From the NCBI RefSeq assembly GCF_003575965.1, contig NZ_QWJJ01000001.1:365285-429284 (forward strand): DNA of 64,000 nucleotides, in the 5' to 3' direction. Position 1 is the stretch's first letter. Every line of letters starts with the position of its first letter. Source of the stretch: Pseudooceanicola sediminis (GTDB taxonomy: Bacteria > Pseudomonadota > Alphaproteobacteria > Rhodobacterales > Rhodobacteraceae). Shown one piece after another: positions 6,948 through 57,849 of the stretch. Made by a program: the position numbers and the translations under genes. Under the pieces are notes generated by a model. That model had not been told where the DNA came from, did not search any database, and was given only the letters and a program-made list of their open reading frames with translations.

Positions 6948-6998
6948 GCCTTTTTGGCCCGCCCCCACCCTCCGGGGGCAGGCCATTTTCACATCGGA

Positions 6999-9365: not shown

Positions 9366-9371
9366 GCCCCC

Positions 9372-10265: not shown

Positions 10266-10334
10266 CGCTTCCCCCCCTTTTCGCAAGGGGCTGCGCACCG
10301 GGTCAGGTGCGCAGCCCGCCATATCTCAGTCAAC

Positions 10335-10398
10335 GCCATGCCTCAGCCTTGCCATGCCTCAGCCTTGCCACGCCTAAGCCTTGCCATGTCTCGGCCAT
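10335..10398 (-). repeat. Four tandem copies of a 16-bp unit between TRAP genes
   Basis: Unit GCCATGCCTCAGCCTT. The first two copies (10335-10350 and 10351-10366) are identical; the third and fourth have two and four or so changes. The array lies in the intercistronic gap between the binding-protein gene and the small-permease gene. Its role is unknown. Confidence 0.7.
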
Positions 10399-10407
10399 GC
10401 CATCGCG

Positions 10408-10439
10408 GGCCACGGCGCGTCCTGATCCGCGCCGTGGCC
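10408..10439 (-). terminator. Intercistronic hairpin after the TRAP binding-protein gene
   Basis: A 12-bp perfect GC-rich stem (10408-10419 with 10428-10439) with an 8-base loop starts 20 bases after the binding-protein stop. There is no T run, so it fits an mRNA-stabilising or partially terminating hairpin. That would give more binding protein than permease, as is common for such operons. Confidence 0.55.
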
Positions 10440-10458
10440 GACGCCACGTGGCGCTCGA

Positions 10459-41653: not shown

Positions 41654-43024
41654 ATGGCATCACTCGAGGAGAAAATCAGACGATATCCCAACCCGGCGCA
41701 GATGATGCGCAATCTGCAAACCGGGCGGTACGAGTTCCCGATTGCGCCGCAATTCACCAACTGGATTGAAGAACAGCAGGCCTGGCGCAACAGCGCCGCC
41801 CTGATGGATCAGTCTTTCCATATGACGGACCTCTACGTGCGCGGACCCGACACGATCCGCCTCTTGTCCGACCTGGCGGTCAACAGCTTTGCCAAGTTCG
41901 GCAAGAACAAGGCCAAGCAGATCGTCTGCGTGAACGAGAACGGGTATGTTATCGGCGATGCAATATGCTTTGGCCTGGAAGAGGATGAGGTCAACGTCGT
42001 AGGGCGCCCGGTCCTGCCCAACTGGATCCAGTACCACGCCGAGACGGGGGACTACGACGTAACCATCGAACGCGATCAGCGGTCCCTCGACAACCCTGAC
42101 AAGCCACGCATGACCTACCGCTTTGAGGTGCAGGGCCCGCAAGCCCTCGCCATCCTGAATTCCGTAAACGAAGGAGGGCCGCTAACCACCAGGTTCTTCA
42201 ACATGGGAGAGATCACCATCGCCGGTTGCACCGCACGCACCCTGAGCCACGGCATGGGCGGCGCCGAAGGGCTGGAGATTTTTGGACCGTTCGAGGATGG
42301 GTCACGCGTCAAGGCCGCGCTGTTGAAAGCTGGCGAAGCATACGGTCTGCGCCAGGTAGGTGCGCGGGCCTATTCATCTGCGGCAGCGGAATCTGGTTGG
42401 GTCCCCTCGCCGCTTCCCGCGATCTACGACGGCGCTGCGATGCGCCCCTATCGTGAATGGTTGGATGAAGAGAGCTTTGAGGGCGTCAGCACGATCGGCG
42501 GCAGCCTCGACACCGATGAGGTGAGCGATTATTATCTCACCCCTTGGGATCTGGACTACGGACGTGTGATCAAGTTCGACCACGCGTTTCTCGGTCGCGA
42601 GGCCCTCGAACGGATGAAGGACGGCCCCCACCGCCGCAAGGTGACACTGATCTGGAACCGAGAGGACATATTGGGGGCATTCGGAGGCATGATGGACGAC
42701 GGCGAGCTGCCCGCGAAGTACATGGAGATGCCCGCCGCACATTATGCGACCCATCCCTATGATCGCGTGCTGTCCGATGATCGGGACGTGGGTGTCTCGA
42801 TCAGCCCCGTATTCTCGTCGAACGAACGGGCTTGGATATCTCTGGCGATCTTGGATCCTGACGTCGCCCAGGCCGGGGCCGAGGTAACGGTCGTCTGGGG
42901 CGAACCGAACGGTGGCAACGACAAACCCAACGTTGAGCCGCACCGCCAGGTGAAAGTTCGTGCGACAATCCACGACTGGCCGATCCACGAAGCTTCGCGG
43001 TCCCACTACCGCCAGCAAGTCTGA
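41654..43024 (+). CDS. Tetrahydrofolate-dependent O-demethylase, LigM/DesA-like (GcvT family)
   Basis: A 456-residue protein of the aminomethyltransferase fold. It matches the vanillate/3-O-methylgallate O-demethylase LigM along its length: WRTEQWAWRNSA-like EEQQAWRNSAALMDQSFHMTDLYVRG, NKAKQIV, ESGWVPSPLPAIY, YREWL, GGS...DYYLTPWDLDYG, and the end TVVWGEPNGG. Such enzymes move a methyl group from an aromatic methoxy carbon to tetrahydrofolate. A strong GGAGGAGG site precedes the ATG. The GntR regulator follows directly. The precise methoxylated substrate is unknown; DMSP demethylase DmdA is a more distant relative and a less likely function. Confidence 0.85.
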   Translation: MASLEEKIRRYPNPAQMMRNLQTGRYEFPIAPQFTNWIEEQQAWRNSAALMDQSFHMTDLYVRGPDTIRLLSDLAVNSFAKFGKNKAKQIVCVNENGYVIGDAICFGLEEDEVNVVGRPVLPNWIQYHAETGDYDVTIERDQRSLDNPDKPRMTYRFEVQGPQALAILNSVNEGGPLTTRFFNMGEITIAGCTARTLSHGMGGAEGLEIFGPFEDGSRVKAALLKAGEAYGLRQVGARAYSSAAAESGWVPSPLPAIYDGAAMRPYREWLDEESFEGVSTIGGSLDTDEVSDYYLTPWDLDYGRVIKFDHAFLGREALERMKDGPHRRKVTLIWNREDILGAFGGMMDDGELPAKYMEMPAAHYATHPYDRVLSDDRDVGVSISPVFSSNERAWISLAILDPDVAQAGAEVTVVWGEPNGGNDKPNVEPHRQVKVRATIHDWPIHEASRSHYRQQV

Positions 43025-43040
43025 GGAGCGCCTTTACTGC

Positions 43041-43820
43041 ATGGAACAGCCGACCGTGACCACCGGACCCGAGGATATCGAGTCCGCCGCAGGCACCCGC
43101 CAACAGCAGGTCGCCGATACCTTGCGGGATCTGATCGTCACCGGTCAGCTCGACCCTGATCGCAAACACTCCGAGGCGGCCCTCGCCGAGCGCCTCGGAG
43201 TGTCCCGCACGCCGGTCCGACATGCTCTTGCGGTGCTGGTGGAGGAAGGCGTCATGCGTCGGGCTGGCGGGCGCGGCTATGTGGTACGTCAGTACGATGC
43301 GAACGACGTGGCCGTGGCGCTGGAAATTCGTTCGGCAGTCGAGGGCCTTGCTGCCCGCAAGGTGTCCCAGCAGGGATTGTCGCAGGATGTTGCCGCCACG
43401 CTTGACGCTTGCCTGGCAGAGGGCGACGCAATGTTCCGTCCTGGCGAAAGTGGGCCTGTCGACGAGGCCCGCTATTCGAGAATGAACGAGGCCTTCCACG
43501 AAGCCATCGCCGTTGCGGCCGGGGGCACACTTTTCGGCGAAGTCCGCGCCGTGCTGGACCGCGTGCCTTTCGGCGCTCCCTCCGCCATCCGGTTTCATCG
43601 CATGGATCCTGTGGAACGCCGGCTGCACCTGCAGCACGCGCACCTTCAGCACCACTACATCGTTGCCGCAATTCGCGCGCGCGACGCTGCCCGCGCCGAG
43701 GCGCTTTTTCGCGAGCACGGTGAAATGATCAAGGTCAGCCTGGGCCTGACCCGAGGCCCATGGCAGCGCACTGCCGGTAGCGGCTTGCCCATCAGCCCTG
43801 GTGTCCGACCATCGGAGTAG
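43041..43820 (+). CDS. GntR-family transcriptional regulator (FCD domain)
   Basis: A 259-residue regulator: winged helix (QQVADTLRDLIVTGQLDPDR ... LAERLGVSRTPVRHALAVLVEEG) and an all-helical FCD ligand domain with the metal-binding His residues in NEAFHEAI and the late HLQHAHLQHH segment. ATG 43041 lies 16 bases after the O-demethylase stop, with GAGGAG overlapping that stop. It probably senses an acid intermediate and controls the O-demethylase and perhaps the convergent TRAP operon. Confidence 0.88.
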   Translation: MEQPTVTTGPEDIESAAGTRQQQVADTLRDLIVTGQLDPDRKHSEAALAERLGVSRTPVRHALAVLVEEGVMRRAGGRGYVVRQYDANDVAVALEIRSAVEGLAARKVSQQGLSQDVAATLDACLAEGDAMFRPGESGPVDEARYSRMNEAFHEAIAVAAGGTLFGEVRAVLDRVPFGAPSAIRFHRMDPVERRLHLQHAHLQHHYIVAAIRARDAARAEALFREHGEMIKVSLGLTRGPWQRTAGSGLPISPGVRPSE

Positions 43821-43986
43821 CGCCTGTTACCTATCGCTAGGTTGCTAACTGAACGAACGGAAATGGATATCGGTTGCTGCGGGCGGCAAGGCCTTGGGGA
43901 AGGCCGTCAACTCAGATTGCTCGCGCGCGTTCCACGTGCCAGCCACTGGGCTTCAGCTTTGCGACACCCACCGATGAGAAACCGTT

Positions 43987-44014
43987 GAAAGGGGGGCGAT
44001 ATCGCCCCCCTTTC
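43987..44014. terminator. Bidirectional terminator between the GntR gene and the TRAP operon
   Basis: A perfect 28-base palindrome (two 14-base arms, GAAAGGGGGGCGAT and its complement). It lies between two convergent units. In RNA a small loop must open at the centre. T runs are limited to the TTTC arm ends. Confidence 0.7.
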
Positions 44015-44087
44015 CCAGACAGCCCAATCCGAAAGCTTTGCGCGGAATGCCACCCCCTACGCCCCGCTGCATGCGCCAGCGCGCGGA

Positions 44088-45401
44088 TCAGAGGTACGCG
44101 AGCCACGTTGCAACAGGCGGAAACACGATGATCAGCAGCACAGCGACAATCATCGCGATGACGAAAGGAAATGCACCGCGAAAGATATCTCCAACCTGCA
44201 AGTCCGGATCGTTCATTGCCGATTTGATGGTGTAAACGGACAGCCCAAACGGCGGCGTCAAAAGGCCGACTTCAACCGAAACGACCGTCAGGACGCCAAA
44301 CCAGACCAGGTCGAAGCCCGCAGCCTCGGCGACGGGCAAGGCGATCGGAAGCATGATCAGCATGATCGAAATGGAGTCGATCAGGCAGCCAAGTGCAACA
44401 ATCAGAAGAAGATAGCACAGCAGAAAGCCATAGGGCCCCACCGGTCCGGAGAGAAAAAAGTCAGCCAGTTCCCGCGGTACGCCAGACAAGGCGAGCATTC
44501 GACTGAAAAAGGTCGCAGCCATGATCAAAAGAAGAACGGAAACGGTGATCTGACCGGTCTCGACAAGCAATGTCCATAGGGTGCTGCGTCCGAGGGATCG
44601 GCGAACCAAGGCAATCACCAAAGCGCCAAAAGCCCCCGCCGCGCCAGCCTCTGTCGGATTGAAGAACCCACCGTACAGGCCGCCAAGCACCAGCAACATC
44701 AATGACAGGATCGGCACAGATTTTCGGGCGACGGAAGCAGGGCTGAGGTCTTCCTGGTGGACCGAGACAGCCTCTTGCGTAAAGACGAAGTCCTTGCGGG
44801 TCTTGGCCAGCAGGAGGATCGTGGCTGAGAACAGGACTGACAGCAGAATTCCCGGTCCGATTCCGGCCAGAAACATGCGCCCGACGGATTCCTCGGCCAG
44901 CACCGCATAGACGATCATCAAGAGCGAGGGAGGGATCATCATCCCCAGCACCGAGGAGCCCGCAACGACCCCGGTTGCGAATTTTTTCTGATAGCCATGG
45001 CGCGTCATTTCCGGCACAGCCACACGGCTGAAGACGGTGGCAGAGGCCACAGAGATGCCGGTAATCGAGGCGAAGACGGCATTGGCGAACACAGTGGCAA
45101 CCCCCAGGCCCGCCGTGACACGCTTGAGCAGCTTCTCAAACACGTCGAAGGTGTCCTTTCCGACCCCTGAGACTGTTACGAGCAGCCCCATCAGGACGAA
45201 CAGTGGAACGACCGCGAACAAATACTCGCGCAGGGAGTCGTTGGCGACAGCGCCAATCATGCGCATGGCGATCGCCTCGTTCCGGATCAGGGCGACACCG
45301 CAAAAAGACACCAGCAGCATGCCGATTGCGATTGGCAGACCGAGGTAGATCAGGACAACCATCGCGGCGATTGCGTAGGTTCCAATTTCAAAAGTGCTCA
45401 T
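44088..45401 (-). CDS. TRAP transporter large permease (DctM)
   Basis: A 437-residue membrane protein of normal DctM length with about 12 helices. Motifs SVLGMMIPPSLLMIVYAVLAEESVG, NPTEAGAAGAFGALV and VGLLTPPFGLSVYTIKSA are diagnostic. It is the last gene of a six-gene operon (49498 down to 44088) and lies six bases after the small permease gene. It forms the sodium-coupled import channel with that subunit. Confidence 0.93.
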   Translation of the reverse strand: MSTFEIGTYAIAAMVVLIYLGLPIAIGMLLVSFCGVALIRNEAIAMRMIGAVANDSLREYLFAVVPLFVLMGLLVTVSGVGKDTFDVFEKLLKRVTAGLGVATVFANAVFASITGISVASATVFSRVAVPEMTRHGYQKKFATGVVAGSSVLGMMIPPSLLMIVYAVLAEESVGRMFLAGIGPGILLSVLFSATILLLAKTRKDFVFTQEAVSVHQEDLSPASVARKSVPILSLMLLVLGGLYGGFFNPTEAGAAGAFGALVIALVRRSLGRSTLWTLLVETGQITVSVLLLIMAATFFSRMLALSGVPRELADFFLSGPVGPYGFLLCYLLLIVALGCLIDSISIMLIMLPIALPVAEAAGFDLVWFGVLTVVSVEVGLLTPPFGLSVYTIKSAMNDPDLQVGDIFRGAFPFVIAMIVAVLLIIVFPPVATWLAYL

Positions 45402-45407
45402 CCGCCC

Positions 45408-45968
45408 TCAACTTTTCTGACCGTTCGCGCGCAGGCTGCCATAGGCACGCACAACACACTCGATTGTAGCGACGGTGACGCCAAGCAAGATCATCGCCCG
45501 AAAGGGCCAGGTTGGCAGCGTTGCGATGCCGGTCACGCCGATATACTCTCCAGACCCCAGGTCCTTTTCGAAGATGCTCACTGTGGACCAGGCGATCAGC
45601 CCGAGCATCGCAGCGCCCGCGAGGTCGAAGACCGCGGACACCATGCCTCCGATGCGCGGGAACCGACGGGTGAGCGGCGGCAGGAAGATTTCTGTCCGCG
45701 CCAAGCGATTGGCGCGGATCGTGGCTGCGAGCTGCAGATAAACGATCATCACCAGTACAAGTGCGCCCAGTTCGGAAACCATCGGCAACGACGACCCCAG
45801 CACGTTGCGGAACACGATGTCACTGCAAATGATCAGCATCAGCAAGCCGATCATCACGGTGCCAGTGGCGGCCAGCCCATCGACGATGCGGGCCCAGCCT
45901 CTCGCCCACAGGGGGGCGGGGTGCCCGCTTGGAACGCGGGCACCTTTCGGAGTGTTTTCGGAGTACAA
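45408..45968 (-). CDS. TRAP transporter small permease (DctQ)
   Basis: A 186-residue four-helix membrane protein: GLAATGTVMIGLLMLIICSDIVFRNVLG and LGALVLVMIVYLQLAATIRANRLARTEIF are typical DctQ segments. The start is TTG 45968, supported by AAGGG nine bases upstream and by the 12-base spacing from the binding-protein stop; no ATG or GTG would keep the first helix. Confidence 0.88.
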   Translation of the reverse strand: MYSENTPKGARVPSGHPAPLWARGWARIVDGLAATGTVMIGLLMLIICSDIVFRNVLGSSLPMVSELGALVLVMIVYLQLAATIRANRLARTEIFLPPLTRRFPRIGGMVSAVFDLAGAAMLGLIAWSTVSIFEKDLGSGEYIGVTGIATLPTWPFRAMILLGVTVATIECVVRAYGSLRANGQKS

Positions 45969-45980
45969 TGGACTGGACCC

Positions 45981-47069
45981 TTACTTGTCCCAATCGCGTG
46001 CAGGTTCTTCACCTGCGGCACGCAGAGCTTCCATGTAGAGTCCCAGAAACTCGGTTGCTGGCACGCCCTGTGCATCGACGCTGGCCGCCCATTCTCCTGC
46101 AAGGTCGGGCAGTTTGTCGACCCAGGCCTGACGTTCACCATCCGGCATCTGCACGATGGTCACCGGCGGTGTCTGATCGGCTCCGTTCTTCACCATCAGG
46201 TCGAGCATCATCTCGTGTCGGTCCACCATGTCCTGTCCGTGGGACTTGGTGTAATATTTGCCCGCCTCGATCATAGCGGACTGCACCTCTTCGGGCAGGG
46301 TATCCCAGACGTCCTTGTTGATCGCGATCGCCCCCGAGAATGCCGCCCCCGCGTCGAAGCGGTTGATATAGGGCGCAACTTCATAAAGTTTGATCGGCAT
46401 CGCGCCGAGTGCGAGCGTCAGCGCACCGTCAGATACGCCAGTCTGCACGTCGGTATAGAAAGTTGTCAGCGCACCATCGACCGCATTGGCCCCGGTGCCC
46501 CGCAACCAGTTGCCCAGCACCCCGGGCGCCGACAGCTTCATGCCATCGATGTCATCGATTCCGGTCAGAGGCTCCTTGGTGTAGATGTCGTAAAGATCCG
46601 TCGCCGTCAGGCCCAGAACTTTGACGTTATGGTCTTCCCATTCATTTCGAAACGCTTCGTTCGTTTCCAGAAGTTCCTCCATCACGGCCAGAAGCACAGG
46701 AGGATTGGCGGTCGCAAAGGGCGTGTTGGTGGACACCTGGCTCAGCGGCAACTGTGCAGGTTCGAGAAACGAAAACACCCAGCCAACATCGGTGATGCCC
46801 TGTTCAACCGAACTCAGCGTTGCATTCGCCTTGTAGAGCGTCCCTCCAAACGCCTCGTTCCAATTGATTTTGTAGGTGCCGTCTTGCGCCAGAATCTCGT
46901 CTGTGCGGGCCATGAAATGCGTCTGGATCATGCCAACCCATGGCACCACTGTCGGATGGCTCGATGCCACCGTCAGATCGATCGTTTCCTGCGCAAACAG
47001 AGCGGCGGGCATCAGCAACGCGCCCGTCACAGCCCCTATGCGAGTCAAAGTCCCCATAAACGTCTTCAT
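45981..47069 (-). CDS. TRAP substrate-binding protein (DctP)
   Basis: A 362-residue periplasmic binding protein with a Sec signal (MKTFMGTLTRIGAVTGALLM, cleavage near ALFA-QE). DIDGMKLSAPGVLGNWLRGTGANAV holds the family's carboxylate-binding Arg region, and AIAINKDVWDTLPEEVQSAM is the typical C-terminal segment. ATG 47069 has GGGAGG six bases upstream. Its place with a CoA-transferase and a lyase suggests an organic or aromatic acid as substrate. Confidence 0.9.
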   Translation of the reverse strand: MKTFMGTLTRIGAVTGALLMPAALFAQETIDLTVASSHPTVVPWVGMIQTHFMARTDEILAQDGTYKINWNEAFGGTLYKANATLSSVEQGITDVGWVFSFLEPAQLPLSQVSTNTPFATANPPVLLAVMEELLETNEAFRNEWEDHNVKVLGLTATDLYDIYTKEPLTGIDDIDGMKLSAPGVLGNWLRGTGANAVDGALTTFYTDVQTGVSDGALTLALGAMPIKLYEVAPYINRFDAGAAFSGAIAINKDVWDTLPEEVQSAMIEAGKYYTKSHGQDMVDRHEMMLDLMVKNGADQTPPVTIVQMPDGERQAWVDKLPDLAGEWAASVDAQGVPATEFLGLYMEALRAAGEEPARDWDK

Positions 47070-47088
47070 CGTTTTCCTCCCTCGATGA

Positions 47089-47493
47089 TCATGAAAGTGC
47101 AAAAGTCTGCGTCGCGTAGTTCAGTCGCAGGGTCACCGACCCTTCGTTGATCAGCCAGGGCCGCACGACAAAACTGCGCGCGCCACTCTGGTGCATCGGA
47201 TCACGTGCTGCGATCTCCGCAGCGGCCTCAGGTGAGGCGGCGCGCACGATGACCATGCCCTCCCCCTCCCAGTGCTGGCCATCGCCGCTCCACAACGGCC
47301 CTGCCGCAAACAGGATTCCGTCGTTTTCAAGCTGCACCTGAAACGCCAGGTGCGGCTCCATATTGGCGAAAACCGCCCCCAGCCCGTCGGTTGGCGTGGT
47401 GAAAATGGCGTAGAGCTGCTTTTGCAGCATCGCGCCACTGGCCTCCAGCACCGCCGCGACGGGCACGGCTTTCGGGTTGTCATGGTCGGTCAT
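47089..47493 (-). CDS. YciI-like protein (dimeric alpha/beta barrel)
   Basis: A 134-residue protein with the YciI-type fold: MLQKQLYAIFTT, a middle stretch ...HLAFQVQLENDGILFAAGPLW and MVIVRAASPEAAAEIAARDP, then the beta strand FVVRPW. YciI relatives share the fold of muconolactone isomerase; some act in aromatic pathways. ATG 47493 has GGAGG upstream; the ORF start at 47622 would lie inside the CoA-transferase gene. It lies between the CoA-transferase and binding-protein genes, so a catalytic or isomerising role in the same pathway is possible. Confidence 0.78.
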   Translation of the reverse strand: MTDHDNPKAVPVAAVLEASGAMLQKQLYAIFTTPTDGLGAVFANMEPHLAFQVQLENDGILFAAGPLWSGDGQHWEGEGMVIVRAASPEAAAEIAARDPMHQSGARSFVVRPWLINEGSVTLRLNYATQTFALS

Positions 47494-47521
47494 CAAGGTC
47501 TCCTCCCTCAAGTATCCGGTG

Positions 47522-48670
47522 TCAGCTGACCTTTCGCTTCGCGTCCAGTTCCGCACGAATTTCGGCGCCATGTTCATCCAGTGTCGGAGGTGGCTTGACG
47601 TCGAATTCCGACTGATCGTCAAAGCTGTAGGGCGGACGCACGGTCGTGAACGGGCCCATTTCGGGATGGTCAGACGTAACCTTTATGCGCAGATGCTGTG
47701 CCTGCGGGTCTTCCAGCGCCTCATCAGCGTCATAGGCGGGCGAATGCGGGACCTCGGCCTGTTCAAGCCTGGCACACCAGGCATCGCGGGTATCGGACAG
47801 AAAGATCGGCGTGAAGATATCGATCAGGTCATCCTGATGGCGGATACGCTCAAGCCGCTCGGCAAAGCGTGGATCCTGCTTCAGCTCTTCCTGCCCTGTC
47901 GCGTCCAGCAGTCCCTCCCAGAATTTGGTGGGTGACGACATGTGGATCGCGACCCATTTGGCATCGCTGCATTCAAACGTATAGCTTTGCGAGACAACGG
48001 GACGGGACAGCGGCCCCATGATCTCGCCTTCCGAATAGTAGTGGGTGAAACTGTCGAGGTTGAAATGCGCCATCGCCTCAAGCATCGAGATATCCAGACG
48101 ACGCCCCTGCCCCGTGCCGGCGCGCTCCAGAAGGGCGGCAAGGATGCCCATTGCGGCGTATTGGCCGGTCACCGAATCCGCGATGGCGGGGCCAATGACA
48201 CGTGGGTTCTGGGGGGGCGTCAGTAGCCGCAGATAGCCGCTGGCGGCCTGGGCCACGGTATCGTAGGCGGGCCGGTCCTTGTAAGGGCCCGATTTGCCGA
48301 ACCCGGAAATAGCACAGTAGATCAAGCGGGGATTGATCTGGCGCAGGGCATCTTCACCCGCTCCAAGTTTTTCAGCGACACCGGGGCGGAAGTTCTGGAT
48401 GAACACATCCGCCGTCGCAACGAGATCGTGCAGAACAGCCAGGTCCTCGGGCTTTTTTGTATCCAGCGCGATGGAGCGTTTGTTGCGATTGTAGGTTTGG
48501 TAATGCGGCGAGTAGAGCCCGCCCTTGAAGGCACGGAACGGATCGCCGGTGCCGGGGCGTTCAACCTTGATCACATCAGCGCCGAGATCGGCCAGATGCA
48601 TACCCGCGGCTGGCCCCGTGATGTATGTTCCCAACTCGATGACGCGGATATTCTTGAGTATTTTAACCAT
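47522..48670 (-). CDS. CaiB/BaiF (class III) CoA-transferase
   Basis: A 382-residue protein. It starts with KNIRVIELGTYITGPAAGMHLADLGADVIKVERPGTGDP, the family signature; the catalytic Asp is expected in the segment GQYAAMGILAALLERAGTGQ region after IADSVTG. These enzymes move CoA between a CoA-thioester and a free acid. The gene starts 15 bases after the citryl-CoA-lyase-like gene, so the pair may activate and then cleave a tricarboxylate-like acid. Confidence 0.9.
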   Translation of the reverse strand: MVKILKNIRVIELGTYITGPAAGMHLADLGADVIKVERPGTGDPFRAFKGGLYSPHYQTYNRNKRSIALDTKKPEDLAVLHDLVATADVFIQNFRPGVAEKLGAGEDALRQINPRLIYCAISGFGKSGPYKDRPAYDTVAQAASGYLRLLTPPQNPRVIGPAIADSVTGQYAAMGILAALLERAGTGQGRRLDISMLEAMAHFNLDSFTHYYSEGEIMGPLSRPVVSQSYTFECSDAKWVAIHMSSPTKFWEGLLDATGQEELKQDPRFAERLERIRHQDDLIDIFTPIFLSDTRDAWCARLEQAEVPHSPAYDADEALEDPQAQHLRIKVTSDHPEMGPFTTVRPPYSFDDQSEFDVKPPPTLDEHGAEIRAELDAKRKVS

Positions 48671-48685
48671 GTTGCCTCGCCCCGA

Positions 48686-49498
48686 CTACGCTGTTTCAGA
48701 GGTCGCCGTGCCCGGCTTTGTTCCATCGTACGAAATCGCAAGATCTGCCTGATGGGACATGATGAAGCCGATAGGGCGCAGCGCCTCTTCCAGAAGATGC
48801 GCGGCCAGCCCGGCAGTACGCGCCAGCAAGGGCACGGCCTTCAGGGCATCGACGGGCCATCCAGCATCCAGACAGGTAGCAGGAATCGCACCGGAGACAT
48901 TGATCGGCAGGGGCCGCTCGATGATGCCCGGCGCATGTTGCGCAAGATAGCGCAGCGTTTCGATATATTTACCGGAAATTCCAAGCTCGTCGGCGATCTC
49001 AAGCAGCTTGTTGGCGCGCGGATCGCCGCTGCTGTGTTGTGGATGGCCGAGGCCCGGAACCTTCTGACGGGCTTGCTTGAGCTTCTGCAAACTGGCGATG
49101 ACAGCGGTTTCCAGATCGGTGCCCTCGGTTTCCGAAGCCGCGATAATGTCATGCAGGAATCGGCCCGAAACCTCTGAACTGCCAGCGACGACCGACCCCA
49201 TGCCAAGAAGACCTGCCGCCATCGCGCCCTGCCAGGCCTCGGGTCCGGCGGTCAAGGTCATGCGCGCGGCCTGCACACTGGGAACCAGCCCGTGCTCAGC
49301 AATCGCGACAAGGCAGGCATCCAGCATTTTGCGCTGTTCGGCTGTGGGGCGGGTTCCCACCACCAGCAGCCAGAAGTAATCGCTGAAGTCGATTTGCCCG
49401 ATCAGATCATCGCACAGGTCATGGCCCCGCACCGTGATGGTGTCTGCGTCCGACGTTGCAATCGCTGTGTAAGCCTGGTCCTGCTTGCCAATTCTCAT
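48686..49498 (-). CDS. Citryl-CoA-lyase-like protein (citrate synthase fold)
   Basis: A 270-residue protein, much shorter than citrate synthase. KVPGLGHPQHSSGDPRA corresponds to GFGH..Y..DPR of citrate synthase, with the catalytic His. PLPINVSGAIPATCLDAGWP replaces the region that carries the catalytic Asp of citrate synthase (NVDF), so a lyase or another C-C reaction on a CoA thioester is more likely. The C-terminus GLAAHLLEEALRP matches citryl-CoA lyases. ATG 49498 has AAGGTGG upstream. It is the first gene of the six-gene operon. Confidence 0.8.
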   Translation of the reverse strand: MRIGKQDQAYTAIATSDADTITVRGHDLCDDLIGQIDFSDYFWLLVVGTRPTAEQRKMLDACLVAIAEHGLVPSVQAARMTLTAGPEAWQGAMAAGLLGMGSVVAGSSEVSGRFLHDIIAASETEGTDLETAVIASLQKLKQARQKVPGLGHPQHSSGDPRANKLLEIADELGISGKYIETLRYLAQHAPGIIERPLPINVSGAIPATCLDAGWPVDALKAVPLLARTAGLAAHLLEEALRPIGFIMSHQADLAISYDGTKPGTATSETA

Positions 49499-49598
49499 TC
49501 CACCACCTTTTCGCATATCGAAATAAATTTCTCTTGCCGAAAAGATGGCAGCGAATTATCGTTTGGTCAAGGCCATTGGTTCGTGTGTTCTGGTGGCG

Positions 49599-49630
49599 GT
49601 CGATCGATGCGATAGACGACCATCGATGAC
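49599..49630. promoter_or_regulatory. Inverted repeat in the divergent region, IclR operator candidate
   Basis: GTCGATCGATG (49599-49609) and CATCGATGAC (49621-49630) form a near-perfect dyad with one extra base. It lies between the six-gene operon and the IclR gene and would let the IclR protein control both directions. Confidence 0.4.
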
Positions 49631-49652
49631 AAACCCAAGGAGCCCCGGTTGC

Positions 49653-50516
49653 ATGACACTGGACCGCACAACACAGAGCACCCCTGACCCACAGCCCCAT
49701 AAAGGCGCACGTGACGCGCACGACGACAGGAAGCCTGCCGAATTCGTCGAAGCCTTGGCCAAGGGCCTTGCCGTTCTCGAGGCGTTTGATTCCGGACACC
49801 CCGAGATGTCGCTGAGCGAGATTGCCCGCCGCATCGGATCGTCGCCCGCCGCGGCACGACGCAGCCTGATCACGCTCAGCGCGCTCGGCTATGTCGGGCA
49901 GCGGAACAAGAAGTTCCACCTGCGTCCGAAGATCATGACCCTGGGCTCAGCCTTCTATTTCTCGGCCCGCATTGACGAAGTTTTGCAGCCCTTCCTGCGC
50001 GATCTGGTGACCAAGTTCGGCGATGCGTCGTCTGTGGCGACGCTGGAGCAGCGCGATGTGATCTACATCGCCCACAATTCCGTGCAGCGTGCCCGTCGTG
50101 CCGCCGCGACCGTCGGCGCGCGCTATCCGGCTTATGCCACTTCGCTCGGGCGCGTCCTTTTGGCGGGGCAAAGCGACACAGCGCTGGATCGTTATTTCGA
50201 CGGGTTGGTCATAGAACCGCTGACCTCGAAAACCATCACGGATCCCGAGGCCCTACGGGCGGAAATCGAGCTTATTCGACAGGACGGCTATTCAACGACA
50301 GTCGACCAGCTCGACTACGGTATCACCGCGCTGGCGGTGCCTGTCAGATCGCTCGACGGGCGCACGATCGCTGCGCTGAACACGTCTGGCTACACCGGCA
50401 TGGTGGATCCGGCCGCACTGATCGAACACCGACTGCCTGACCTGCGGATCATGGCATCCAGCATCGCGCAGTCGCTGGCAAAGTATCCGGTGCTGGAAGG
50501 CATCATAGGATCATGA
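49653..50516 (+). CDS. IclR-family transcriptional regulator (PcaR/PcaU-like)
   Basis: A 287-residue regulator: winged helix (EALAKGLAVLEAFDSGHPEMSL, ARRIGSSPAAARRSLITLSALGYV) and an IclR effector domain (VIYIAHNSVQRARRAAATVGARYPAYATSLGRVLLAG; GITALAVPVRSLDGRTIAALN). The resemblance to PcaR/PcaU suggests an aromatic-acid-derived effector. ATG 49653 is chosen for AAGGAG ten bases upstream. It lies at the head of the amidohydrolase-ligBA unit and faces the six-gene operon. Confidence 0.9.
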   Translation: MTLDRTTQSTPDPQPHKGARDAHDDRKPAEFVEALAKGLAVLEAFDSGHPEMSLSEIARRIGSSPAAARRSLITLSALGYVGQRNKKFHLRPKIMTLGSAFYFSARIDEVLQPFLRDLVTKFGDASSVATLEQRDVIYIAHNSVQRARRAAATVGARYPAYATSLGRVLLAGQSDTALDRYFDGLVIEPLTSKTITDPEALRAEIELIRQDGYSTTVDQLDYGITALAVPVRSLDGRTIAALNTSGYTGMVDPAALIEHRLPDLRIMASSIAQSLAKYPVLEGIIGS

Positions 50517-50546
50517 CGCAATACCCTTGGAGGAGGAAAAACCCAC

Positions 50547-52058
50547 ATGTGCAGACTTTGCAGCCCCCTGACCCCAGAGGCGCCCTGCCCGACCCGGCGC
50601 AATTTCCTGAAGACAGCGATGGTCAGCGGCGCAGCCGCGACAACCGGACTGGCTGGCGCTGGTTCGTTGCGCGCACAGGAAGTCGCGGCCTCAACCCTGC
50701 CTGAGGGACTTGGCACGCCGGGGCGACGCGTATTGATCAAGGGCGGCGCCGTGTTGTCCATGGATGACGCCGTCGGCAATTTTGCTGTCGGCGACGTGCT
50801 GATTGACGGAAAGAAGATCGTCGAGGTCGGTGCCAATATCGAGGCGGGCGATGCCGTGGTGATCGAGGCTGCGGGCAAGATCGTCATGCCCGGCTTTGTC
50901 GACACCCACCACCACCAGTTCGAAACCGCACTGCGCAGCCAGCTGGCCAACGGCATCCTGATCAATGACGGACTGCCCGAAAATGCCTCCAATTACTACG
51001 AGACGATCTTGCAAGGGTTTTCGCAAGTTTATCGTCCCGAAGACGTCTATATCAACGAATTGTTCGGCGGCATTGCCCAGCTGGATGCGGGCGTTACCAC
51101 GGTGATGGACGTCAGCCAGATTCACCACTCGCCTGAACACTCGGACGCCGCGATCGAAGGCCTGCGCGATGCAGGGCGGCGCGGTGTCTTCGGCTATTTC
51201 GAGGGTTGGGGCGAACGCTCGAAATATCCCACCGACGCTGCACGCATCAAGAAGGAGTACTTTACCTCCGATGACCAGCTGACAACCATGGTCATGGGTG
51301 GCGAGATATATGTGCCGGGTTACGAAGCCGCCTGGAAGGTCGGGCGCGAGCTGGATCTGCCGATTGCCCTTCATGTTGTCGGTACCTTCGGGATGCAGCC
51401 GACGTTCGACGAACTGGGCGCAGCGGGCATGTTCGGCGAGGACAACATCTTCATCCATATGACCGGCATGTCCGACGATGGCTGGAAATATGCTCAGGAT
51501 GCGGGTGCCCATCTGTCGCTTTCGGTGCCGATCGAAATGCAGATGCGCCACGGCACGCCGCCGATCCAGCGCGCCATCGACATGGGCTTCTCGACCTCGT
51601 TGTCGACCGATGTGGAATGCACGATGACGGCCGATTTCTTTACCCAGATGCGTAGCATGATGACCTTGCAACGCATGTTCGCCAACGAAAAGGCGCTGGC
51701 TGGGCAGGAATACCCCCGGCTGATGCCCTGCATAGATGCAATCCGCCATGCCACGATGGGCGGTGCCGAAGGGCTGAAACTGGACCGCAAGGTCGGCTCC
51801 CTGACGCCGGGAAAAGAGGCCGACATCATCTTGCTGGACGCCGAGGCTATCAACGTCGCCCCTCTGAACAACGTCCCCGGTGCAGTGGTAACCCTGATGG
51901 AGCGTAGCAACGTCGACACCGTTTTTGTCGCGGGCTCGGTGAAAAAGTGGAACGGCCAACTGATGGGCTTTGATATCGCCCGCCTGCGCAGCGAGCTGGA
52001 AACAAGCCGCGACTATCTCTTCGATGCCGCAGGTATCGAGCGCGATCTGTTCGCGTAA
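50547..52058 (+). CDS. Tat-exported amidohydrolase
   Basis: A 503-residue protein with a twin-arginine signal (TRRNFLKTAM, hydrophobic stretch to SLRA-QE near residue 44), preceded by a Cys-rich start MCRLCSPLTPEAPC. The metal-dependent hydrolase fold follows: HxH in DTHHHQFET (about 122-126), later His in PIALHVVG and IFIHMTG, and Asp in LSTDVE, the set seen in the TrzA/ATZ group (COG0402). It would deaminate, dechlorinate or hydrolyse a ring or amide compound outside the cytoplasm. GGAGGAGG precedes the ATG. It lies 30 bases after the iclR-type gene. Confidence 0.87.
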   Translation: MCRLCSPLTPEAPCPTRRNFLKTAMVSGAAATTGLAGAGSLRAQEVAASTLPEGLGTPGRRVLIKGGAVLSMDDAVGNFAVGDVLIDGKKIVEVGANIEAGDAVVIEAAGKIVMPGFVDTHHHQFETALRSQLANGILINDGLPENASNYYETILQGFSQVYRPEDVYINELFGGIAQLDAGVTTVMDVSQIHHSPEHSDAAIEGLRDAGRRGVFGYFEGWGERSKYPTDAARIKKEYFTSDDQLTTMVMGGEIYVPGYEAAWKVGRELDLPIALHVVGTFGMQPTFDELGAAGMFGEDNIFIHMTGMSDDGWKYAQDAGAHLSLSVPIEMQMRHGTPPIQRAIDMGFSTSLSTDVECTMTADFFTQMRSMMTLQRMFANEKALAGQEYPRLMPCIDAIRHATMGGAEGLKLDRKVGSLTPGKEADIILLDAEAINVAPLNNVPGAVVTLMERSNVDTVFVAGSVKKWNGQLMGFDIARLRSELETSRDYLFDAAGIERDLFA

Positions 52059-52146
52059 TCGCCTTTACGGCCCTGCAGATCCTATCTGCGGGGCAAGACG
52101 CAAGCCCGCCCTTTTATGGGTCGCTGAGAGATGAAGGAGCGAAACC

Positions 52147-53007
52147 ATGGCTCAGCTAGTTGCCACCCTGGCATCCACGCACCACCCATTCTACCTGAAA
52201 GCAACGACCCTTCCGCCCGAGCAGCAGATGCCGCAGGCCGCCGAGTGGAAGCGCAAGGTCGAGGCCTACCGCGAAACACTGGCCCGTACGAAGCCCGACG
52301 TTCTGGTGATGATCGGATCGGACCATTTCCACCAGATTTTCCTGGACAATTGCCCGCAGTTCCTGATCGGCAAGGCGCCGCGCTATGATGCGATCTTCTA
52401 TAACGAGGAGCGCGAGTTCGGCATTCCGAAATATGTGCTGGAGGGGGATGAGGCGATGTCGGGCTTCATGCACCAGCACCTGATGGATCAGAATTTTGAT
52501 TTTGCATTCTCGAACGAGTTGAAGATCGACCATTCGATCATCTGCCCGATCATCACGGTGCGTCCGCAAAACGATCTGCCAGTGGTGCCGATCTATACCA
52601 ATATCTTTGCCCCGCCGCTGGCTTCGCCGCGCCGTTTCTACAATCTGGGCCGCGCCATCCGCAAAGCCATCGACGCCTATCCGTCTGAAAAGCGCGTTGC
52701 GGCCATCGGGACCGGCCATCTGTCGCTGGAACTTGGCGGGCCCCGTCAGTTCATGGAGACAGGCCCGGACCCCGAGTTCGACCACCGCGCAATCGAATGG
52801 CTACGCAACGGTGACATCGACGCCATTCTCGACAATGTCGACCATGCCTCTATGGCGAAAAGCGGCAATGCCACGCATGGATTTCTGAACTTTATCCTGA
52901 TGCTCGGTGTGGCAGGGCCCGAGGGCGCAGATTACGTCGACAATCTCGACCTGTTCCACACGATGGAAGCCTATTTCACCTGGTATCCGAAGGAGAGCGC
53001 GGCATGA
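52147..53007 (+). CDS. LigB-like extradiol dioxygenase subunit with altered active site
   Basis: A 286-residue protein of the class III extradiol dioxygenase fold (LigB, beta subunit of protocatechuate 4,5-dioxygenase). His12 (ASTHHP), His60 (GSDHFH) and His129 (KIDHS) match LigB positions. In the segment GTGHLSLELGGPR the catalytic His195 of LigB aligns with Leu194, and in SGNATHGFLNF the ligand Glu242 aligns with Gly245; His191 and His244 lie close by. I aligned these by eye from remembered LigB sequence. The protein may use a different ligand set or reaction. Its stop overlaps the ligA-like start. Confidence 0.8.
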   Translation: MAQLVATLASTHHPFYLKATTLPPEQQMPQAAEWKRKVEAYRETLARTKPDVLVMIGSDHFHQIFLDNCPQFLIGKAPRYDAIFYNEEREFGIPKYVLEGDEAMSGFMHQHLMDQNFDFAFSNELKIDHSIICPIITVRPQNDLPVVPIYTNIFAPPLASPRRFYNLGRAIRKAIDAYPSEKRVAAIGTGHLSLELGGPRQFMETGPDPEFDHRAIEWLRNGDIDAILDNVDHASMAKSGNATHGFLNFILMLGVAGPEGADYVDNLDLFHTMEAYFTWYPKESAA

Positions 53008-53369
53008 GCAAGTATTACGTCAACAAGTTCCTCTTCACCGTTGACCGAGATCCAGACTATCTGCGGCGTTACACCGAAGATCCCCGCAACTTTGTCGCCA
53101 CCTGGGAGCAATCCATTGGCCCGCGCCTGAACGACGCCGAGATGTCGACCGTTCACAGCTTTACCGAGGCCGAGCGCGAGGCGCTGATCAACCACGACTA
53201 TGTCGCCCTTTTTGAAATGGGCGCGCATTTCTTTCTGAACCTGACGATCTTTATTGGCATCTACGACGAGATTTTCATGACAAAATCCGGGCCTCTCGCC
53301 TTTCAGAAAGAATTCGCCCTCAAGCTTCAGAGTTGGAAGGGGAAAGACTATCCCTCTGTCGCCACCTGA
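53004..53369 (+). CDS. LigA-like small subunit of the extradiol dioxygenase
   Basis: A 121-residue helical protein of the LigA (protocatechuate 4,5-dioxygenase alpha) family: a helical start YYVNKFLFTVDRDPDYLRRY and FTEAEREALINHDYVALFEMGAHFFLN, where LigA has its conserved EREAL...GA segment. It caps the active site of the LigB-like partner. The start overlaps the upstream stop as ATGA, showing obligate coupling. The order B-then-A is the reverse of Sphingobium ligAB. Confidence 0.82.
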   Translation: MSKYYVNKFLFTVDRDPDYLRRYTEDPRNFVATWEQSIGPRLNDAEMSTVHSFTEAEREALINHDYVALFEMGAHFFLNLTIFIGIYDEIFMTKSGPLAFQKEFALKLQSWKGKDYPSVAT

Positions 53370-54337: not shown

Positions 54338-55519
54338 TCATTCAATCAGATAGCGCGCCACAATGGGTTGATAAGCTGCCCCAAGGGCACAGGCCGTCGT
54401 GCCAAGCCGACCGGCCATGACCTGCGGCGGGGAAATACCGCGCGTATCCAACCCACCGATACGCTCCGCGACGGCGGCGACCATCCTGTCGCGCAACGCA
54501 GCGGGCAGGCTACCATCGATGATTATCGCCGGAACATCCAATATCGCGACCAGCGCAATCGCTCCGTACGCAAGATAGCCCGCCACCTCCTCCAGCCATT
54601 GATCGCAGATATCCTCGAACTCTTGCCACGATCTATCGCGATGCAGCGCGGCATCAAGAATGCGCTTTGAGGCCCCCTTGCTGCGCTGATCAATCCTGCG
54701 CTCCAGCTCATATCCCGACGCGACCTCAAGCAGTTGCACAACCTTGCCATCCTGGCGTGGAACGGGGATCGACGCGATGGCGCCGGCGTTTCCGCCCGGA
54801 CCCGAATAGAGGCGGCTGTCCAGCATCACGCCACCGCCGACAAAGGCGCCCAGGTAAATATATCCGAAATCCGGGGTACCTGTAGCGGCCCCGAAAAGAT
54901 GCTCTCCATAGCAGGCAAGCGAGCTGTCGTTGCCAACATAAACCGGCAAACCAGTGCGTTCAGACAGGGCTGCCTCGGCATCAAATTCTTTCCAGGCCAG
55001 CATTTCGTGCTCCTGTCCGCCGACACGGTCCAGCCAGCTCCACAGGTCGAATGGCATCCCAACACCCAGACCGACGATGCGCTTTTGCTGATCCGGCGTC
55101 AGACGTGCCGCGAATTGCGCGATACCGTCGCTGACGAAGGCAAGGGTACGCTCTGGAGTTGGATAGGCGTGCCGTGTCGTGATCTGGCTGCGCACCTGCC
55201 CGACGAAATCCATCAGCACAAGGTCCGATTGCCGCCGCCCCAACCGCAGGCCCACTGAGAAAGCTCCGCTCGGGTCCAGTCCTATCGGCGTGGAGGGCTT
55301 GCCCACCCGCCCCTTTACCGGATCGCCCCTGCGCACCAGCCCTTCGGCCTCAAGCCCACGGGTAATCACCGAGGCAGACTGCGCAGATAGCCCCGTCAGG
55401 CGCGCCAGTTCGGCAGAGGGCGTCGGCCCCCCTAACCTTAACAGGTTGAGGATGGCACGCTCATTGGCGCTGTAGTTGCGCGTGGACACCTCCGATAGAG
55501 GCGCGAGGGTGGTGGGCAT
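54338..55519 (-). CDS. frcR: ROK-family transcriptional regulator
   Basis: A 393-residue protein: an N-terminal winged helix (NERAILNLLRLGGPTPSAELARLTGLSAQSASVITRGLE) and a ROK sugar-kinase-like domain with sugar-binding VYVGNDSSLACYGEHLFG and GYIYLGAFVGGGV. It lacks the Cys-rich ROK zinc motif in clear form. ATG 55519 has AAGGAG six bases upstream. It is divergent from frcBCA, as is the ROK regulator of the Sinorhizobium frc operon, and probably represses those genes in the absence of sugar. Confidence 0.85.
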   Translation of the reverse strand: MPTTLAPLSEVSTRNYSANERAILNLLRLGGPTPSAELARLTGLSAQSASVITRGLEAEGLVRRGDPVKGRVGKPSTPIGLDPSGAFSVGLRLGRRQSDLVLMDFVGQVRSQITTRHAYPTPERTLAFVSDGIAQFAARLTPDQQKRIVGLGVGMPFDLWSWLDRVGGQEHEMLAWKEFDAEAALSERTGLPVYVGNDSSLACYGEHLFGAATGTPDFGYIYLGAFVGGGVMLDSRLYSGPGGNAGAIASIPVPRQDGKVVQLLEVASGYELERRIDQRSKGASKRILDAALHRDRSWQEFEDICDQWLEEVAGYLAYGAIALVAILDVPAIIIDGSLPAALRDRMVAAVAERIGGLDTRGISPPQVMAGRLGTTACALGAAYQPIVARYLIE

Positions 55520-55562
55520 ATGGAGCTCCTTCCGCCTGACTTTCTCCACCCCGCATTAATAA

Positions 55563-55610
55563 GTCAACGTGATTTATTTATTGACGCGTCAGCGGAATCA
55601 CTTCTACACA
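55563..55610 (+). promoter_or_regulatory. frcB promoter with overlapping dyad
   Basis: TTGACG (55581-55586), an 18-base spacer and TACACA (55605-55610) form a plausible promoter. GTCAA (55563-55567) and TTGAC (55581-55585) form an inverted repeat that covers the -35 box and is a candidate operator for the divergent ROK regulator. Confidence 0.4.
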
Positions 55611-55690
55611 TGTCGTGTTCGCCGTGTTGGCGGGCTGCACGAGGTCCGGAGAGGAGTCCGGGTCCTGCGTAATGTCTGGGAGGACACCTC

Positions 55691-56707
55691 ATGAAGAAAT
55701 TTCTCGCCGTTTCGGCGCTCGCCCTCAGTGCAACTGCCGGGGCGGCCTTCGCGCAAGATGACGTCACCGCCTGCATCGTCACCAAGACCGACACGAACCC
55801 GTTCTTCGTCAAGATGCGCGAAGGCGCTGCATCCAAGGCAGAAGAGCTGGGGATCAATCTGATGACTTTCGCTGGTAAATACGATGGCGACCACGAAAGT
55901 CAGGCACAGGCCATCGAGACCTGCATCGCCAGCGGTGCAAAGGGCATTCTGCTGACCGCATCCGATACATCGTCCATCGTCTCCTCGGTCAAGCAGGCGC
56001 AGGACGCAGGCGCCATCGTCATCGCCCTGGATACCCCTCTTGATCCTGCGAGCGCCGCCAATGCCACCTTCGCCACCGACAACTTCAAGGCGGGCGAACT
56101 GATCGGCCAATGGGCCAAGGCCAAGCTGGGCGACGCCGCAGCGGACGCCAAGATTGCCTTCCTCGACCTCAACGTCAGCCAGCCGACCGTCGGCGTGCTG
56201 CGCGATCAGGGCTTCATGCAGGGCTTCGGTATCGACATCAAGGACCCTGCCCGCTACGGCGACGAGGATGACCCCCGCATCGTCGGGCATGATGTGACCC
56301 AAGGCAACGAAGAGGGCGGCCGCAAGGCGATGGAGAACCTCCTCGCGCAGGATCCCATGATCAATGTCGTCTACACGATCAACGAACCCGCCGCGGCCGG
56401 TGCCTATGAAGCGCTGAAATCGCTGGGTCGTGAAAAAGATGTGCTGATCGTGTCGGTCGATGGTGGATGTCCCGGCGTTCAGAACATCGCAGACGGCGTG
56501 ATCGGTGCCACCTCGCAGCAGTATCCGCTGGAGATGGCCTCCAAGGGGATTGAGGCAATTGCCCAGTATGCCAAGGACGGCACGCTGCCGCAACCCACCG
56601 AAGGAAAAGACTTCTTCGATACCGGCGTCACTCTCGTGACCGACCAGCCGGTTGAGGGTGTCGAGTCCATCGACGCCGCCAAGGGCCTCGATATCTGCTG
56701 GGGCTAA
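55691..56707 (+). CDS. frcB: Fructose-type ABC transporter, periplasmic binding protein
   Basis: A 338-residue binding protein with a Sec signal ([23 protein letters not shown]). It matches FrcB of Sinorhizobium meliloti almost block by block: [101 protein letters not shown]. FrcB binds fructose and also ribose and mannose. First gene of the frcBCA operon, with the ROK regulator divergent. Confidence 0.92.
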
Positions 56708-56784
56708 CCCGCGCGTCACCCTGACCAAGCCGTGAGGCGGCAGCGCCGCCTCACACCTCCCGCCAGCCAGAAGGGGACGGAGCG

Positions 56785-57849
56785 ATGAGCAAAAGCGATT
56801 CCTACGAAGACATCGTCAAGACACGCCGCGAAGAGAACTTCGCCGAGTTCCAGGACGAACACCACGGTATCATGCACCGTTTCCAACACACCCTGCACGT
56901 CACCCCGGCGCTTGTGCCGCTGATCGTGCTGGTGTTGTCCATTGTCATTTTTGGCGCGCTGCTCGGCTCGCGATTCTTCTCGCCCTTCGCACTGACGCTG
57001 ATCCTGCAACAGGTGCAGATCGTCGGTATCGTGGCGGCGGCACAATCGCTGATCATCCTGACCGCTGGCATCGACCTGTCGGTGGGCGCGATCACCGTCA
57101 TCTCCTCGGTCATCATGGGCCAGATGACCTTTCGTTACGGCATTCCCCCGGCGATCTCGGTCGTCATCGGCCTCGCATTCGGTACGCTCTGCGGTGCGCT
57201 GAACGGATTGCTGATCAGTCGCATGAAACTGCCGCCTTTCATCGTCACACTTGGCACCTGGCAGATCATCCTGGCTACCAACTATCTCTATTCCCGCAAC
57301 GAGACGATCCGCGCCCAGGATATCGAAGCCAACGCCCCGCTGCTGCAATTCATGGGCACGAAATTTCAGCTTGGCGGCGCGGTCTTCACCTTCGGCGTGG
57401 TCTTCATGATCGTGCTGATGCTGCTGATGGCATGGGTGCTGCGCCACACCGCGTGGGGCCGCCACGTCTATGCCGTCGGCGACGACCCTGAGGCGGCGCA
57501 GCTCTCGGGCGTCAATGTCAAGGCGACCATAATGTCGGTCTACATGATTGCCGGTCTGATCTGCGCCTTCGCAGGCTGGGCGCTGATCGGACGGCTCGGA
57601 TCGGTCTCTCCCACATCCGCTTATGAGGCGAACATCGAATCCATCACAGCCGTGGTGATCGGTGGGATCTCGCTCTTCGGTGGACGTGGCTCGATCCTTG
57701 GGGCGCTGTTCGGTGCGCTGATTGTCGGTGTCTTCACCCTCGGCCTGCGCCTTCTCGGGGCCGACGCCCAGTGGACCTACTTCTTCATCGGTGTGCTGAT
57801 CATCGCCGCCGTCGCCGTCGACCAATGGATCAGAAAGGTCTCCGCATGA
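56785..57849 (+). CDS. frcC: Fructose-type ABC transporter, permease
   Basis: A 354-residue permease of the ribose/xylose (BPD_transp_2) type with about ten helices. A 40-residue charged cytoplasmic start precedes the first helix (PLIVLVLSIVIFGALLG). ILTAGIDLSVGAITVISSVIMG and YAVGDDPEAAQLSGVNV are family motifs; the latter contacts the ATPase. Its stop overlaps the frcA start as ATGA. Confidence 0.92.
   Translation: MSKSDSYEDIVKTRREENFAEFQDEHHGIMHRFQHTLHVTPALVPLIVLVLSIVIFGALLGSRFFSPFALTLILQQVQIVGIVAAAQSLIILTAGIDLSVGAITVISSVIMGQMTFRYGIPPAISVVIGLAFGTLCGALNGLLISRMKLPPFIVTLGTWQIILATNYLYSRNETIRAQDIEANAPLLQFMGTKFQLGGAVFTFGVVFMIVLMLLMAWVLRHTAWGRHVYAVGDDPEAAQLSGVNVKATIMSVYMIAGLICAFAGWALIGRLGSVSPTSAYEANIESITAVVIGGISLFGGRGSILGALFGALIVGVFTLGLRLLGADAQWTYFFIGVLIIAAVAVDQWIRKVSA

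Follow-up and report, generated by a model that had tools for sequence, protein, structure and literature searches.

A 64,000-nucleotide stretch of the Pseudooceanicola sediminis genome (the window: contig 1, positions 365285–429284; the assembly has 54 contigs and a total of 4.44 Mb) contains, at positions 41654–53369, a gene island in which LigB- and LigA-like ring-cleavage subunits (together LigBA) stand beside a CaiB-type coenzyme A (CoA) transferase and a citryl-CoA-lyase-like protein, CitL. We lean towards reading this island as a unit for aerobic catabolism: LigBA would open a ring, CaiB would form a thioester of the product and CitL would cleave a carbon–carbon bond, a leaning that concerns the general scheme and not the ring. 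For the ring our preference is tentative: the island may be the first bacterial central pathway for 1,2,3,5-tetrahydroxybenzene, in which an enzyme of the LigAB fold with a rebuilt (perhaps three-histidine) metal site, swapped several times with a hydroxyquinol-type intradiol dioxygenase, would give 2,4-dioxoadipate, which CaiB and an Asp-less CitL would convert to oxaloacetate and acetyl-CoA by a hydrolytic retro-Claisen reaction. An earlier note on this DNA had proposed a CoA-dependent lower pathway that takes the place of LigJ and LigK. We retain a CoA-dependent lower pathway tied to a ring-cleaving enzyme, and find support neither for the substrate that was named for it nor for the replacement of LigJ/LigK. 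All genes named in that note were found as open reading frames (ORFs) at their places, on their strands and with the expected domains, LigA weakly so.

Gene content and synteny were compared at the best 80 of at least 517 LigB relatives (596 pattern hits) from a scan of genome contigs. Genes at these loci were counted by tblastn; the greedy ORF map masked some genes with spurious frames. LigB is present in 80/80 by construction, as it was the basis for choosing the loci. Two loci, L003 (genome G158) and L018, are very likely one, as each lies on a contig with a length of 47381. LigA was also found in 80/80, always 3′ of LigB and on the same strand. CaiB and CitL accompany LigBA in 66/80 loci each, always both or neither, at median distances from LigB of 2.0 kb and 1.2 kb, respectively; the conserved synteny that the earlier note had suggested looking for is therefore present. 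An IclR regulator occurs in 63 loci, an amidohydrolase in 53, the large permease DctM of a tripartite ATP-independent periplasmic (TRAP) transporter in 37, FMN_red in 35 (all of them loci that also have CitL) and YciI in 31. Rarer are a branched-chain amino acid (BCAA)-type ATP-binding cassette (ABC) transporter (17), P450 (8), and a MetE-like protein, a DAHL kinase and a cytochrome peroxidase (7 each), followed by GMC (5), FAH and CocE (4 each), and flavin monooxygenase and LeuD-like proteins (3 each). Because of these counts, the core of the island is LigB, LigA, CaiB, CitL and IclR, a grouping beyond chance. By our probes, some islands show LigBA, CaiB, CitL, IclR and transport genes only, with no hydratase recognised. 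The O-demethylase had been counted as a member of the island; DesA was found at two of the 80 loci (a number that may be low, as the 10-kb flank barely extends to the DesA position) and by tblastn in 0/13 of the sister islands described below, and we treat it as a neighbour.

Among the 80 loci, island carriers are, going by record titles, mostly Alphaproteobacteria and actinobacteria. The closest named island among the matches kept is that of Pseudooceanicola spongiae HQ09, with a LigB 99% identical to that of the window; for this reason the host of the window is probably a marine bacterium. A protein search of plasmid records returned 11 places at ~65–91% identity, in Rhizobium, Martelella, Neorhizobium, Aminobacter, Sinorhizobium, Rhodococcus and Nonomuraea, followed by a gap down to ~38% and below.

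Evidence on the ring comes from islands in which LigBA is replaced. In 295 genomes of the family, with limits of E 1e-20 for CitL and E 1e-40 for LigB, CitL was found in 90 (17 of them with an identity of at least 68%) and LigB in two. Of these 17 genomes, 14 have a gene for an intradiol dioxygenase, two have LigBA and one has neither in the stretch that was read (G018, locus L137). We took the surroundings of 16 CitL places from the family genomes (L124–L136, L137, L138 and L139), and 13 of them (L124–L136) are the same island: CaiB (79–84% identity), CitL (72–77%) and IclR (57–69%) are present in 13/13, DctP (67–78%) in 12, the amidohydrolase (63–78%) and FMN_red in 11, the MetE-like protein in nine, YciI in seven and FAH in six. 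By tblastn, none of the 13 has a LigB or LigA match. Instead, a ~287-residue intradiol dioxygenase is located between IclR and CitL in all of them, the L128 protein being 76–87% identical to the other 12; the fourteenth genome with this gene is G216 (L120). The gene was not found in any LigBA locus examined for it. The protein has the domains Dioxygenase_N (PF04444) and Dioxygenase_C (PF00775), and its nearest solved chains are PnpC (3n9t, 221 bits) and then other hydroxyquinol 1,2-dioxygenases; its NCBIfam matches are all catechol-type and none reaches a cut-off. The GxYPIQ motif is seen in 13/13, the second-Tyr pattern in 7/13 and the His-pair pattern in 12/13, so that the ligands are confirmed only in part.

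A tree of CaiB and CitL (85 rows, quick IQ-TREE, SH-aLRT support only) needs five changes of dioxygenase type, at least three of which are forced by well supported branches. Since two unrelated enzymes have been exchanged repeatedly while the importer, the regulator and the lower enzymes were kept, both would do the same job. And since the enzyme that repeatedly replaces LigBA, with CaiB and CitL retained, is of the hydroxyquinol type, it very likely attacks the same ring as LigBA and at the same bond.

We also looked at more distant CitL places. L138 and L139 (CitL 49–50%) have neither LigBA nor the intradiol gene, and both have Ser at the CitL position discussed below. In a class-wide sample of 385 genomes, CitL was found at a limit of 1e-60 in 17, the window's own included, and 10 of the 16 non-own places were examined (L156–L165). 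One of them, L156, is an intradiol island that belongs to another family. In L160, CitL, CaiB and IclR are accompanied by an iron-type alcohol dehydrogenase and a dioxygenase of the hydroxyquinol type (positions 2749–6750), which shares 32% identity with the first intradiol protein. L157, L158 and L159 have CitL (56–59%), CaiB (58–62%) and a vicinal oxygen chelate (VOC) protein, which in L158 gives weak glyoxalase-type matches only; L158 and L159 also have two MetE-like proteins, and L157 and L159 a WrbA quinone oxidoreductase, matched in L157 and over the cut-off in L159 and also in L137. In L161–L165 (CitL 45–51%), our probes found no ring-cleaving partner and no CaiB except a 34% match in L162. 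The MetE C-terminal-like protein, seen at L018:11271–12293 and at 19 other loci (one record assigns it to the uroporphyrinogen decarboxylase family), recurs with LigBA, with the intradiol enzyme and in L158/L159; it may be a methyl carrier in the use of methoxylated substrates.

Residue changes in both LigB and CitL set the island apart from its characterised relatives. As in the class III extradiol dioxygenases LigAB (protocatechuate 4,5-) and DesB (gallate), the LigB fold, here extending across nearly the whole chain, comes with His12, His60 and His129 and with a putative small partner subunit. The predicted LigB model is nearest to DesB (26% identity), and no NCBIfam subfamily cut-off is reached (best PRK13364.1, 133.5 bits vs. 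290). We take two His and a Glu to be the metal ligands of the LigAB family; unlike LigAB and DesB, the island protein has Gly in the column of the ligand Glu (54/54 in one alignment; 90/91, with one gap, in another), Leu in the column of the catalytic His, an additional His191 and the gene order LigB then LigA. These changed columns do not fit the ordinary 4,5-dioxygenase that LigBA had been taken for. Because His191 is invariant (91/91) and, in the distant relative K84, is present together with loss of the ligand Glu, the alignments suggest that it is a moved metal ligand. This idea comes from sequence only, as the model has low confidence at residues 61–70 and 191–210, adjoining the putative metal site.

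CitL has citryl-CoA lyase (6hxp) as its closest solved chain and exceeds the cut-off of NF004868, and its lyase activity is predicted on that basis. Where the aligned 6hxp row has Asp, presumably the Asp of the NVDG motif that is catalytic in the citrate synthase family, CitL has Ser in 62/74 rows (Ser208 in the window) and Ala in 12/74. His158 and His161 are invariant (74/74 each), His161 being extra relative to citryl-CoA lyase. In CaiB, Asp165, which we take to be the catalytic Asp of type III CoA-transferases, is kept in 85/85 aligned rows.

The reactions, the ring and the direction of CoA transfer we infer from these observations. The precursor would be imported by TRAP (or ABC) transport, or demethylated, and would be turned into the ring substrate by a set of demethylases and quinone reductases that varies from island to island, with IclR sensing a compound of the pathway. 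LigBA would then open a polyhydroxylated ring, CaiB would make the CoA thioester of the open-chain acid, and CitL would break a carbon–carbon bond with release of acetyl-CoA. Hydroxyquinol-type intradiol enzymes need a 1,2,4-triol, and DesB-type enzymes act on a vicinal triol, where they cut between two carbons that carry hydroxyl groups. 1,2,3,5-Tetrahydroxybenzene, which could come from dimethoxyhydroquinone/syringyl units, gallate or phloroglucinol, is both, so that intradiol and DesB-type cleavage of it would lead alike to 2,4-dioxoadipate. With CoA esterified to its far carboxyl, this acid would be a 3-oxoacyl-CoA. The hydrate of such a thioester resembles citryl-CoA, and its fission would release oxaloacetate and acetyl-CoA, which citryl-CoA lyase also produces. 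The quinone reductases and methyltransferase-like genes that recur in the islands are in keeping with this ring. The FAH-family genes of six sister islands, kin of 2,4-diketo-acid hydrolases but below cut-off, agree with 2,4-dioxoadipate. So, weakly, does the outcome for an iron-type alcohol dehydrogenase used as a probe for a maleylacetate-reductase-like gene, which matched in no more than 1/13 sister islands (L129, itself weak), a single-probe test being a weak one.

The earlier note had relied on the absence of LigJ and LigK from the window, and indeed no LigK match was found there, nor did one LigJ-like probe (so named from its sequence) find anything. Elsewhere in the host, TIGR02798 (LigK) matches lie on contigs 17, 45 and 14, over the cut-off on contig 17 alone (375 bits vs. 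304.5), where an oxalomesaconate tautomerase also exceeds its own (510.7 vs. 440). This locus (L102, positions 204500–223500) comprises the tautomerase, LigK, an LmbE-like ORF, which we take to be a possible GalB, and a LysR ORF matching PcaQ below cut-off. A more canonical lig locus on contig 41 (L103, positions 55000–74500) has LigM (599.7 bits vs. 580), TRAP-like ORFs, LigA (under cut-offs), LigB (above three subfamily cut-offs) and an amidohydrolase-like ORF with no NCBIfam match. From these matches the ordinary 4,5 pathway of the host looks largely present, so that the island would be an addition to it and not a stand-in for missing LigJ and LigK.

Several findings weigh against our reading, and some of them favour other rings. 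LigBA occurs without CaiB and CitL in 14/80 loci (L016, L031, L044, L045, L046, L048, L050, L051, L053, L055, L056, L057, L071 and L084), in three of which (L016, L051 and L055) the match is close to a contig end. The scheme leaves the amidohydrolase, YciI and the MetE-like protein without a role, an Asp-less CitL might catalyse a reaction different from the retro-Claisen one, and with an altered metal site the dioxygenase activity of LigBA is itself a prediction. Islands L160, with its iron-type alcohol dehydrogenase beside CitL and CaiB, and L070, a LigBA locus with a match to the same kind of dehydrogenase, would fit plain hydroxyquinol: LigBA would be a true intradiol enzyme converting 1,2,4-trihydroxybenzene to maleylacetate, the CoA ester of which would be split into acetyl-CoA and maleate, a reaction that would take the place of maleylacetate reductase and thiolase. 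The sister enzyme is indeed closest to hydroxyquinol 1,2-dioxygenases, L160 couples such an enzyme to CitL and CaiB, and a changed LigB metal site would suit changed chemistry. However, this route requires genuine intradiol chemistry in a LigB fold, of which we know no case, and the FAH relatives are better suited to 2,4-diketo acids; we consider it rather unlikely. We give a somewhat lower rating to the route that the earlier note favoured, in which 4,5-cleavage of a gallate-type acid gives oxalomesaconate and, after hydration, 4-carboxy-4-hydroxy-2-oxoadipate, whose CoA ester, made by CaiB, would be cleaved by the citryl-CoA-lyase-like enzyme. The similarity of the LigB model to DesB, the neighbouring DesA/LigM-like gene and the proximity of islands L018 and L157 to LigK and tautomerase genes all point towards gallate-type acids, and a gallate link is still conceivable given those two islands. 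In L157 (positions 680–10942), CitL, CaiB and IclR directly adjoin a lig operon with genes that, from similarity, we call tautomerase-like, LigK-like, LigJ-like and LigA-like, and with a LigB over cut-off. Set against these points, LigK and the tautomerase are present elsewhere in the host, the smallest islands show no recognised hydratase, LigBA swaps with a hydroxyquinol-type enzyme, and CitL lacks the Asp found in 6hxp.

Two further explanations we regard as improbable. Another class of substrate, such as an N-heterocycle with the amidohydrolase as main enzyme, would suit the frequency of that gene (53/80 loci and 11/13 sister islands), and the PF01979 protein KpiC is reported, in the accessible part of the source, to open 3,4-dihydroxypyridine oxidatively (PMC7356986); but no amidohydrolase was found in 27/80 loci, and the demethylase-like and quinone-reductase genes indicate methoxylated phenols or quinones. 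It is slightly less credible still that the LigB-like protein has lost dioxygenase activity and comes into play once another enzyme has opened the ring. Gly and Leu in the ligand-Glu and catalytic-His columns would be expected of such a protein, but it swaps with an intradiol dioxygenase showing its family motifs to the extent that our patterns matched, and the invariant His191, with its presence in K84, suggests a moved ligand.

The loci without CaiB and CitL include all seven with a VirA-like DAHL kinase (L031, L044, L045, L046, L053, L057 and L071), and we accordingly set aside a link of the island to VirA/acetosyringone. These seven have the same LigBA subfamily together with varying sets of P450, di-haem peroxidase, GMC and FAH genes; rhizobia may thus process the same ring product in another way.

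A fungal central pathway through 1,2,3,5-tetrahydroxybenzene was reportedly put forward by Martins et al. in 2024. Judging from the sections of the sources available, this pathway seems to be confined to fungi (FAMeDB, PMC13094099) and shares the proposed ring intermediate with ours; the fungi use a protein named DUF3500 or DUF3550 (PMC13094099, PMC12388069), and the DUF3500 protein is proposed to convert tetrahydroxybenzene to 5-hydroxydienelactone (review PMC12388069). The amidohydrolase, or the proteins that substitute for it, might therefore serve in lactone hydrolysis. In the hydroxyquinol pathway, 3-oxoadipate CoA-transferase and thiolase stand where the island has CaiB and CitL; the sister islands share with it the hydroxyquinol 1,2-dioxygenase relative and recurring quinone reductases. 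LigJ/LigK/LigU (GalB/C/D), the ordinary fate of the LigAB product, have no CoA dependence and lie outside the island. A 2026 study of acetosyringone in Pseudomonas rhizophila (PMC12911418), in the portion available, describes direct hydroxylation of syringyl rings and leaves the lower pathway open; its asd cluster shares with our scheme a syringyl-type substrate, ring hydroxylation, a VOC gene and hydrolases, and the same portion lists no LigBA, CaiB or lyase.

In the open-access literature searched, we found no described system with the LigBA, CaiB and CitL gene set. Flavonoid A-ring cleavage of the fde/ifc type was rejected: it uses the glyoxalase-family protein FdeC, and the available parts of papers on either system mention no CoA or lyase. 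The acetovanillone (PMC13101465), acetosyringone (PMC12911418) and syringate (PMC12314914) systems have different gene sets, and those of riboflavin and 4-hydroxypyridine catabolism do not match the island, as far as the available texts go. PMC7522526, in its accessible part, does no more than list a citryl-CoA lyase among proteome changes, and PMC11467972 and PMC12366328, each consulted on a single term, contain nothing relevant.

If correct, our reading would describe a new lower pathway for oxygen-rich rings derived from lignin or algae in soil and marine bacteria, leading from syringyl-type rings to acetyl-CoA and oxaloacetate and so far hidden behind annotations such as extradiol dioxygenase, citryl-CoA lyase and hypothetical protein. 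That two unrelated ring-cleaving folds have replaced each other repeatedly within one conserved island offers a direct approach to the substrate. The Asp-less lyase of the citrate synthase family and the LigB with its variant metal site would be two enzymes whose chemistry can be tested together.

Genes of the island and its immediate neighbours (positions in the window; bits with cut-off in brackets)
Gene	Position	Strand	Domains and matches	Place
DesA/LigM-like (GCV_T), tetrahydrofolate-type O-demethylase	41654..43024	+	PF01571; NF047633 566.6 (800) and NF047885 524.5 (580), both below equivalog cut-off	neighbour
GntR/FCD regulator	~43041..43820 (start estimated)	+	PF00392, PF07729	neighbour
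TRAP large permease DctM	44088..45401	-	PF06808
TRAP small permease DctQ	45408..45968	-	PF04290
TRAP substrate-binding protein DctP	45981..~47069 (start estimated)	-	PF03480; NF037995 72.5 (50)
YciI-like protein	47089..~47493	-	PF03795
CaiB type III CoA-transferase	47522..48670	-	PF02515 361	core
CitL, citryl-CoA-lyase-like	48686..49516	-	NF004868 307.8 (193)	core
IclR regulator, PcaR/PobR-like	49545..50516 (start may be further in)	+	PF01614, PF09339; TIGR02431 (PcaR/PcaU/PobR) 240.7 (284.75)	core
Amidohydrolase (PRK08204.1 group), twin-arginine translocation (Tat) signal	50547..52058	+	PF01979, PF10518; NF006056 408.7 (391)
LigB-like ring-cleaving subunit, variant metal site	52147..53007	+	PF02900 99.8 (26.3)	core
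LigA-like small subunit, 4-base overlap with LigB	53004..53369	+	PF07746 18 (25.3)	core

LigA is the weakest of these assignments, its relative in L005 reaching 22.6 bits, also below the cut-off. The amidohydrolase is possibly a lactone or ester hydrolase. Its export by the Tat system was considered as a core feature and rejected, because other relatives, such as those of L008, L023 and L060, have no signal at the N terminus; a crude Tat pattern matches 31/72 amidohydrolases, several of them within the catalytic domain. Many relatives of the window type begin with an MCxxC-like stretch, with or without a Tat signal following. For the YciI-like protein a lactone or quinone step is possible; solved structures give no function (1mwq only, E 0.05). 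Beside the island, at 54338–58619 of the window, the translations show a ROK-type regulator and the binding protein, permease and ATPase of a sugar ABC transporter, which appear unrelated to it.

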